64,000 nt of DNA from Arthrobacter sp. Edens01. GTDB lineage: Bacteria; Actinomycetota; Actinomycetes; Actinomycetales; Micrococcaceae. The position numbers and the translations under genes were made by a program. The stretch spans positions 248,398 to 312,397 of the forward strand of contig NZ_LKIU01000006.1 of the NCBI RefSeq assembly GCF_001307035.1, in the 5' to 3' direction. The notes under the pieces were generated by a model. It had not been told where the DNA came from, did no database searches, and worked only from the letters and a program-made list of their open reading frames with translations. Each line of letters starts with the position of its first letter. The stretch's first letter is position 1. Below, piece by piece: positions 61,624 through 63,633 of the stretch.

Positions 61624-61881
61624 GTGCCAGAGTCCAAGTCCCGCAAGAAGCCCCCGGCAGCGACAGGAGCAGTGCCCGCCAAGGCGAAGTCCGAGCCGAA
61701 GCCGAACCCGGTCTGGTACAAGCCCGTCATGTTCGGCCTGATGATCATCGGCCTCATCTGGATCATCGTTTTCTACATCTCTGAAGGTGTTTACCCCGTC
61801 CCCGCCCTCGGGGCCGGAAACATCCTCGTGGGCTTCGGGGTCGCCATTGTGGGATTCCTGATGACCACGCGTTGGCGCTAG
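61624..61881 (+). CDS. crgA: Cell division protein CrgA
   Basis: An 85-residue membrane protein with two helices (about 34-56 and 65-82) after a basic, Lys/Pro/Ser-rich cytosolic N-terminus. KPNPVWYKPVMFGLMIIGLIWIIVFY (an N-terminal helix region about 25-50) and YPVPALGAGNILVGFG (about 56-71) match CrgA, which recruits or stabilises FtsI and inhibits FtsZ ring formation. GTG 61624 follows a strong AGGAGGAT site. It is divergent from the sortase gene across 214 bp. Confidence 0.93.
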   Translation: MPESKSRKKPPAATGAVPAKAKSEPKPNPVWYKPVMFGLMIIGLIWIIVFYISEGVYPVPALGAGNILVGFGVAIVGFLMTTRWR

Positions 61882-61901
61882 CCGACTACCGAGTCTCTTC
61901 G

Positions 61902-61939
61902 ACTCCCGGGTTGCCATGGCAGCCCGGGAGTTCTTTTTT
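61902..61939 (+). terminator. Intrinsic terminator of crgA
   Basis: ACTCCCGGGTTGCC-type arms (61902-61915 and 61917-61930) pair almost perfectly and are followed by TTCTTTTTT, a canonical rho-independent terminator 20 bases after the crgA stop. Confidence 0.9.
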
Positions 61940-62029: not shown

Positions 62030-62501
62030 TTACCCACAGGGGTACAGGTTCTCCACACATAGTTATCCACAGGGGTGGATAACTATGTGTGTGATCTTGC
62101 AGATAGAGACACCGTGCACCTCAGTGCCGTCCCTGCCTTATCCACAGCAGCAGGTGGAAAAGCTGGGGATAAAGCGTGCTCCGTGCACAGGGGTTTATAC
62201 CCACCTTGTGCAGATAGTTATCCACAACGGTGGATAACTCTGTGGCTAGTGCGGGCCTTTTTGGCGCCAGCGCGGGGATGCGAGTTATCCACAGCTGTGG
62301 AATTACATGTGTGTAACTCATACACAGCACTGGATAACTCTGTCGAAGAGTTACCCACCGGCTGTGCACAACTTCTCAGCAGGCCTGTGGATAACATCCG
62401 CGGTCTGCCCTGTCCCTCTATCCGGCGACCGTGCAGAACACCCCCAGGATCCGAGTTACACCACTGTAAGTTATTAACAATGTGGGTATCTCTGTGGATA
62501 A
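62030..62501. other. DnaA-box cluster (origin-like or DnaA titration site)
   Basis: Six perfect copies of TTATCCACA: plus orientation at 62063-62071, 62138-62146, 62218-62226 and 62285-62293; minus orientation (TGTGGATAA) at 62386-62394 and 62493-62501. One-mismatch copies lie at 62030-62038, 62074-62082 and 62229-62237. The plus copies are all left of about 62300 and the minus copies all right of it. No dnaA or dnaN gene is in the window, so this is a box cluster rather than a proven origin. A slightly AT-rich stretch (TTATTAAC) lies near 62470. Confidence 0.85.
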
Positions 62502-62784: not shown

Positions 62785-63633
62785 CTAAGGCTGGAAGCTG
62801 GGCGCCCAGACGAAGCTGAGAACCGCGAGCACCACTGTAATGAGGGCAAGTCCGCCGAACTGGAAGAGGGAACGACGCGGGCCCTTCGGTGCGTAGGCCA
62901 GGACGGCGCCGCAGGCTGCACCGGTTACCAGGCCGCCCAGGTGGGCCTGCCAGGAGATGCTGGGGTAGACAAAGCCAAGCACCAGGTTGATGCCGATTAG
63001 GATCAGCAGGGCTTTCACCTCACCGCCACGCTGCCGCTGGATGACGAAGAGGGCACCAAAGAGTCCGAAGATGGCTCCGGACGCACCAACTACTGCCTGC
63101 AGGCCCGGGGCAAGCATAAGCACGCCGATCGAACCGCCGAGTGCGGAGATCAGGTAAAGCAGGGTAAACCGCAGCCTGCCAAGCAGCGGTTCAAGCGACC
63201 TGCCCAGCAGCCACAGGGCATAGAGGTTAAAGGCGATGTGGAAGATGAAGCCGGGGGAGTGCAGGAAGGCGGCAGTGAGCATGCGCCACGGTTCGACTTG
63301 TGCGTAAACCGGGGCGAACCAGAACAGCTCCGTAAAGCCGGGAACAATCCATTGCAGGGCGTAGGCCACACCGCACAGGACCATGAGCGTAATGGTCACA
63401 ACGGGTTTTCCGGCACGAACCGCGCCCCCGTATTGGGTCCGGTACGCCGGGGACTGGCGGCGGCTTTCCTGAAAACAGTCAACACACTGGATGCCCACCG
63501 GTGCCGTGTGCTGGCACTCAGGACAGGCGGCACGGCCGCACCGCTGACACCTTATGTAGCTGACCCGGTCGGGGTGCCGGGGGCAGACAGGCACATCGTG
63601 GGCAGGTGTTCCGGCAGGTACTCCATAGGACAT
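62785..63633 (-). CDS. Rhomboid family intramembrane serine protease
   Basis: A 282-residue six-helix protease. The catalytic pair is Ser185 in GASGAIFG and His231 in AHLGGL. The N-terminus has a zinc-ribbon-like cluster (Cys17, Cys29, Cys32, Cys37, Cys40, then Cys50 and Cys53 in the following residues: CPRH, CQRCGRAACPEC, CVDC), a feature of actinobacterial rhomboids encoded near the kinase-division locus. It cleaves membrane proteins within helices; its substrate is unknown. ATG 63633. The cyclophilin gene lies upstream on the same strand. Confidence 0.92.
   Translation of the reverse strand: MSYGVPAGTPAHDVPVCPRHPDRVSYIRCQRCGRAACPECQHTAPVGIQCVDCFQESRRQSPAYRTQYGGAVRAGKPVVTITLMVLCGVAYALQWIVPGFTELFWFAPVYAQVEPWRMLTAAFLHSPGFIFHIAFNLYALWLLGRSLEPLLGRLRFTLLYLISALGGSIGVLMLAPGLQAVVGASGAIFGLFGALFVIQRQRGGEVKALLILIGINLVLGFVYPSISWQAHLGGLVTGAACGAVLAYAPKGPRRSLFQFGGLALITVVLAVLSFVWAPSFQP

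Follow-up and report, generated by a model that had tools for sequence, protein, structure and literature searches.

The stretch of Arthrobacter sp. Edens01 DNA analyzed here (the window, 64,000 nucleotides; G000:C6:248398-312397, where G000 is the genome studied and C6 the contig) carries a dense cluster of DnaA boxes in the gap between crgA and a rhomboid-family protease gene, raising the question of what such a cluster does there. It belongs to a known kind of element, the origin-proximal DnaA-box cluster, and the best explanation of the whole, held with a probability of roughly 0.6, is that it acts as a DnaA sink close to the replication origin (oriC) that is probably gated by the MerR family protein McdR.

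A motif scan of the 472 bp at 62030..62501 identified six perfect and five one-mismatch copies of the DnaA box TTATCCACA. All six perfect boxes reported by an earlier note on this DNA were recovered (plus strand at 62063, 62138, 62218, and 62285; minus strand at 62386 and 62493), and its one-mismatch copies were real but numbered five rather than three (62030+, 62049+, 62074-, 62164-, and 62229-). The polarity it described is limited to the perfect boxes because the one-mismatch copies make the left part mixed in orientation. The claimed excess over chance was borne out, with 18 boxes at up to one mismatch in the window compared to a mean of 4.16 after shuffling (maximum of 11 in 100 shuffles), and 11 of the 18 falling inside the cluster. 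The complete genome (3,639,179 bases in 10 contigs) contained 28 perfect boxes including the six described here, and the scan for like density elsewhere returned a sole other tight group of three perfect boxes in the rplI-dnaB gap (C6:371838-372060). The cluster was also the densest 500-bp stretch for boxes within C6:160001-417744 and combines a density above chance with a place near oriC and outside the dnaA-dnaN gap.

Box counts at orthologous crgA-rhomboid gaps, a check proposed in the earlier note, were obtained from 80 related loci found by CrgA (mostly Micrococcaceae with some Microbacteriaceae), 75 of them with a resolved gap and the five unresolved loci (L041, L042, L062, L071, and L087) being left out. 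Every resolved gap held at least one box, with at least three in 72 and a perfect box in 70, at a density of 4.64 per kb compared to 0.09 per kb left of crgA; the shortest gap measured 100 bp and the longest 7.7 kb. In Pseudarthrobacter and relatives (L028-L092), the gap measured 1.4-7.7 kb and contained two or three separate box groups with up to 15 boxes (L036); from this gap growth with several box groups, the element seems to have multiplied in that branch. A further locus titled Vibrio cholerae strain 35D (L024, WNZI01000003.1) displayed an Arthrobacter-like crgA locus with 72% CrgA identity and is probably mislabelled.

In the class-wide sample, a CrgA match was present in 156 of 158 genomes, and 48 were analyzed comprising the 30 best-scoring plus 20 chosen for family coverage and complete contigs, with two overlapping. 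In 44/48 genomes, the class-wide box TTRTCCACA (up to one mismatch) occurred no more than 600 bp 3' of crgA, with two or more boxes in 37 and a perfect box in 34, compared to 8/48 for the reversed motif used as control, which never gave two or more (0/48). Among the misses, the element of G022 lies farther out past an inserted methyladenine glycosylase gene, that of G119 adjoins its rhomboid gene apart from a diverged CrgA match, the G168 contig stops 198 bp past crgA, and G102 is a true absence with no element within the 6.5 kb examined. Since at least one positive was found in 17 of the 18 sampled families, the box cluster 3' of crgA is, on this comparative evidence, an old actinobacterial element and presumably a long-standing component of the cell cycle in these bacteria.

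A second component of the locus is a palindrome spotted between the boxes in the class alignments and tested before any ligand was known. At up to three mismatches, TTACACNNGTGTAA was found downstream of crgA in 37/48 genomes compared to 0/48 upstream, one for a control pattern, and four after shuffling. Genome-wide at up to one mismatch, it had one to three places in 11/12 genomes (reversed control 0), one of which sits at crgA in 9/12, and other places precede whiB (up to three mismatches in 27/30 genomes compared to 2/30 for a downstream control). The palindrome is the published motif AATnACAnnnnTGTnATT of McdR (Rv1830), whose role at the whiB2 promoter was shown by mutation (PMC9040748). 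The crgA-gap element of the window contains no exact copy of AATnACAnnnnTGTnATT and carries one copy with one mismatch and one with two. In the class sample, AATnACAnnnnTGTnATT was identified downstream of crgA in 28/48 genomes at up to one mismatch and in 33/48 at up to two, in 14/18 families, compared to 0/48 upstream at up to three mismatches and 0 and 1/48 for two order-swapped control motifs. The motif lay 0-23 bp from the nearest box in 34/34 cases, and a grouping of these distances at 0, 7-12, and 22-23 bp is, the genomes being related, at most a hint of helical phasing. In the 75 resolved gaps, the palindrome was found in 48 at up to one mismatch (control palindromes 0), and only this figure is distinctive because control palindromes in long gaps reach three mismatches in 7, 14, and 19 of the 75. 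The three-mismatch palindrome of L050 was rejected as a McdR motif, being merely a DnaA-box pair. An McdR orthologue was present in all 50 genomes searched as a single copy each (1e-15) with 71-100% identity. A 2022 Science paper reportedly deals with Rv1830/ResR. BldD, WhiA, CRP, and parS were considered as candidate palindrome ligands and set aside. MtrA, which recognizes a direct repeat (PMC6265350), was rejected, and the only Rfam match, mir-3149 on the inverted pair, was far under the cut-off and meaningless.

Across the genome studied, AATnACAnnnnTGTnATT at up to one mismatch had four sites (the crgA gap, whiB, a glutaredoxin gene, and the ung/DUF3263 gap) and its reversed control none; it was not found in the other three DnaA clusters of the genome (best 4, 5, and 4 mismatches). 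The site at G000:C5:1055396 (L273:2396) reads AATGACATACTTGTAATA and precedes a glutaredoxin-domain gene, perhaps nrdH, and an identical sequence is also listed in G001, G022 (as a reverse-complement pair), and G004. An exact McdR-type motif lies at G000:C4:46726 (L272:2726), flanked by genes for a uracil-DNA glycosylase and a DUF3263 protein. In a mycobacterium-like genome, the palindrome was also observed with a one-off DnaA-like box between oxidoreductase and carboxyltransferase genes (L214:4844) and before a gene for a membrane protein without Pfam match (L215:5151), which presumably resembles SepX/Rv0996.

The mycobacterial Rv0011c is crgA, and the CrgA of the mycobacterium-like f7 genomes matches the solved M. 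tuberculosis protein. The Rv0010c-Rv0011c gap ranks among the five strong DnaA sites of mycobacteria, identified by DnaA pull-down with M. tuberculosis DNA and ChIP-seq, and was described by its authors as without obvious correspondence in other species (PMC7738170). A small palindrome within it is recurrently mutated in clinical strains and the mutants are longer (PMC7738170). The site shares with the Arthrobacter cluster its gap 3' of crgA, its proximity to oriC, and a box cluster with a palindrome, the f7 gaps bear the same boxes and palindrome, and the same parts recur 3' of crgA in the intermediate lineages, as counted above for boxes and for the motif at up to two mismatches. It differs in that ten f7 genomes have one to three boxes (up to one mismatch) compared to 11 plus two palindromes here, some f7 genomes have no rhomboid gene next door, and DnaA binding was measured in mycobacteria and is predicted for the Arthrobacter site. 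With a conserved cluster near oriC and a DnaA-bound mycobacterial counterpart (PMC7738170), a DnaA titration or regulation site is the best supported of the four options raised in the earlier note.

Similar non-coding clusters restrain initiation elsewhere, and reviews describe box clusters near oriC in Streptomyces coelicolor and Bacillus subtilis that repress untimely initiation (PMC4585315, PMC5742627). The B. subtilis clusters and Escherichia coli datA have the same role but lie beside other genes in other places, and datA works with IHF through essential boxes in one direction (PMC5742627) whereas the present cluster has boxes in both directions, inverted pairs, and a MerR-type motif; an IHF site was not searched for. 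The Streptomyces-like genomes of the sample (6-7 SsgA copies) carry two or three perfect boxes 3' of crgA and differ in the absence of the McdR motif there. A Streptomyces DnaA-box cluster near oriC, reported by Smulczyk-Krawczyszyn in 2006 (cited in PMC4585315 and PMC5742627) and similarly outside yet close to the origin, may be the crgA gap; a literature search for H69/SCH69 found nothing.

The cluster would be the Micrococcaceae form, richer in boxes, of a chromosomal control locus that is old in actinobacteria and lies about 15 kb from oriC. Its boxes would be bound by DnaA and, lying near oriC, the locus would duplicate right after initiation and withdraw DnaA or alter its state, damping re-initiation. 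The palindrome inside the cluster would be an operator for McdR, which also represses whiB, a cell-division regulator gene; McdR on the cluster center would shift the amount of DnaA held there such that one protein could set both initiation and division. Two parts of this model are held more tentatively, at somewhat less than even odds: that in most sampled actinobacterial families McdR gates an oriC-adjacent DnaA sink via a built-in operator and that, by analogy, McdR plays the role of IHF at E. coli datA and DARS2, freeing DnaA while repressing whiB and division. Work by others on mycobacteria has demonstrated binding of DnaA to the equivalent gap (PMC7738170), binding of McdR to the motif at other promoters (PMC9040748), and filaments with a raised ori-proximal copy number upon mcdR overexpression (PMC9040748). 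The candidate operator shares with the described McdR regulon the AATnACAnnnnTGTnATT motif, also found before whiB, and differs in that the known targets are promoters whereas the crgA gap is not a promoter and is packed with DnaA boxes. In its main text, PMC9040748 mentions neither dnaA nor Rv0010c nor crgA. Literature placing McdR at the DnaA site of the crgA gap was not found among the sources covered, including the main text of PMC9040748, and may exist in print. The features of the locus and its surroundings are collected in Table 1.

Table 1. Coordinates of the DnaA-box cluster, its components, its neighboring genes, and the McdR orthologue (window positions unless a contig is given).
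Feature	Position	Strand	Remark
DnaA-box cluster	62030..62501		6 perfect + 5 one-mismatch TTATCCACA
Inverted box pair	62063..62082		TTATCCACA (+) with one-mismatch (-) copy, 2-bp spacer; pair 62063/62074
Perfect DnaA box	62138..62146	+	Motif scan
One-mismatch DnaA box	62164..62172	-	Motif scan
Second inverted box pair	62218..62237		Perfect (+) with one-mismatch (-) copy, 2-bp spacer; pair 62218/62229
Perfect DnaA box	62285..62293	+	7 bp left of first McdR-type motif
First McdR-type palindrome AATTACATGTGTGTAACT	62301..62318		1 mismatch to AATnACAnnnnTGTnATT
Perfect DnaA box	62386..62394	-	Motif scan
Second McdR-type palindrome AGTTACACCACTGTAAGT	62454..62471		2 mismatches to AATnACAnnnnTGTnATT
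TTATTAACA string	62471..62479	+	Also in conserved core of dnaA-dnaN gap (6/7 aligned genomes)
Perfect DnaA box	62493..62501	-	Motif scan
crgA	61624..61881	+	CrgA, PF06781, Pfam E=4e-31; left neighbor, ends at element
Terminator-like hairpin 3' of crgA	61901..61932	+	14 pairs then T run; pattern match, 2 found vs 0.9 expected in shuffles
Rhomboid-family protease gene	62785..63633	-	PF01694, E=8e-31; right neighbor, convergent with crgA
McdR orthologue	C5:1753687-1754085	-	MerR_1; beside FHA (garA-like) gene, near BFN domain match

Several points weigh against a DnaA sink gated by McdR. Of five McdR DNA immunoprecipitation sequencing (DIP-seq) peaks, three are named in the main text of the source and none of these is the crgA-gap site (PMC9040748). 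The initiation rate was unchanged in mycobacterial dnaA and Rv0010c-Rv0011c mutants (PMC7738170), which does not fit a simple strong sink. HigA2 binds the M. tuberculosis palindrome in vitro (PMC11205783), the 48-genome sample consists of best CrgA matches and the author's picks with families unevenly represented, and seven Streptomyces-like (f20) and three f18 genomes have boxes without a recognizable motif (4-6 mismatches), such that McdR gating is not universal. The mycobacterial palindrome has also been read as two DnaA-box-like sequences (PMC7738170), which together with the motif-free Streptomyces-like loci speaks for a plain DnaA sink or inactivating site in which McdR plays no role and the palindrome itself provides two weak contacts for DnaA. 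This alternative is rather unlikely as the same palindrome precedes whiB far more often than it occurs in the downstream control, whiB2 is outside the five strong mycobacterial DnaA sites, and the palindrome equals an experimentally tested McdR motif.

An auxiliary or displaced replication origin would also account for a dense box cluster and was among the options of the earlier note, which correctly stated that the window has no dnaA or dnaN (both begin ~11-13 kb past its right end) and added that the pknB block usually lies near the origin. A search of the genome located dnaA on the minus strand at C6:325436-326854, 14.5 kb to the right of the cluster; next come dnaN, a gnd-like gene, recF, gyrB, and gyrA (names except dnaA assigned from translations). 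In a comparison set of seven genomes, comprising the genome studied, five Arthrobacter/Pseudarthrobacter, and one Leifsonia, alignment of the dnaA-dnaN gap revealed a box-box core, GTTRTCCACAGTWTCCACAG, kept in 7/7 genomes and followed in 6/7 by TTATTAACA, a string common to this core and the cluster. The features expected of oriC (dnaA-dnaN location, conserved core, and AT-rich stretch) were not combined at the crgA cluster; the core sits in the dnaA-dnaN gap, the AT maximum over 40 bp was 0.62-0.70 for the cluster and did not exceed the 0.65-0.72 of the dnaA-dnaN gap, and some crgA-rhomboid gaps are just 100-121 bp. In Kocuria, the putative oriC was similarly assigned to dnaA-dnaN (PMC12500396). 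Within C6:160-418 kb, the cumulative GC skew reaches its minimum less than 4 kb from the cluster, which, with the box density and the shared TTATTAACA string, speaks for an origin, but relative to the crgA end the minimum scattered in the seven genomes (-3.3, +0.7, +7.7, +5.5, -2.3, +63.0, and +16.1 kb). Coding strands were C-rich at fourfold sites in every gene class such that converging genes alone can yield a skew minimum, and leading/lagging skew differences were small with the disputed genes (gyrA, gyrB, dnaN, and others) differing by a possible expression bias. The minimum near crgA, which at first resembled the mark of a displaced origin, is compatible with either reading, and GC skew was dropped as a criterion. 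With a conserved oriC-like core retained in the dnaA-dnaN gap 14.5 kb off, a displaced oriC is unlikely, and an auxiliary or displaced origin as a whole very unlikely.

A site resembling the E. coli DARS elements, recharging DnaA with ATP instead of removing it, is less probable still. The inverted box pair plus tandem box recall the DARS core in the E. coli bioD-uvrB gap, taken as the location of DARS1, and the commonest class-wide box spacings were tandem 12 and inverted 10-11. DARS elements have a three-box core at fixed spacing in which box I runs against boxes II and III. The topology is alike here, but DARS membership was rejected on spacing, the inverted spacing being 10-11 compared to 14 in the bioD-uvrB gap (boxes plus, minus at 14 bp, and minus at 12 bp).

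DnaA acts as a transcription factor elsewhere, and the earlier note had further suggested a DnaA-controlled promoter for crgA or the rhomboid gene. This is scarcely credible and contradicted by the gene arrangement, since both genes end rather than start at the gap (convergent in 75/75 resolved related gaps), so that it cannot serve as a promoter for either, and expression of both neighbors was unaltered in mycobacterial dnaA mutants (PMC7738170). A pattern scan, a weak type of evidence, also placed a terminator-like hairpin after crgA and found no sigma-70-type promoter-like site in the gap.

The crgA site is accompanied by other DnaA-box clusters. At up to one mismatch, the genome studied has seven boxes in the dnaA-dnaN gap, four upstream of dnaA, and six in the rplI-dnaB gap, compared to 4-7, 4-5, and 4-9, respectively, in the six other genomes (the rplI-dnaB stretch being 16 kb in 9V and 3 kb in GA104). 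The rplI-dnaB group (G000:C6:371825-372060, L012) is a second conserved cluster with three perfect boxes, box clusters were identified there in 7/7 genomes, and it matches the site bound by DnaA upstream of dnaB in mycobacteria. As the dnaA-dnaN, dnaA-upstream, and rplI-dnaB gaps also carry clusters, the genome studied has a counterpart for four of the five strong DnaA sites of mycobacteria. An extra box group was observed downstream of parB in GA104 (G004, ~C1:2217970-2218352; six boxes, three perfect, all minus) and in 9V (G005, ~10 kb from dnaA); the Arthrobacter genomes closest to the window showed no such group.

We know of no defined actinobacterial counterpart of datA or DARS. As far as the literature searched, the class-wide synteny of the cluster and the putative built-in McdR-type operator are new. 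If true, McdR gating would account for the raised ori-proximal copy number and the filaments upon mcdR overexpression, and clinical mutations of the mycobacterial palindrome would hit an operator bound by McdR, not a pair of weak DnaA boxes, giving a second way of reading a palindrome under selection in clinical strains. The arrangement suggests that a switch at this locus may couple DNA replication with cell division, the McdR motif being a concrete testable link from replication initiation to WhiB-controlled division.
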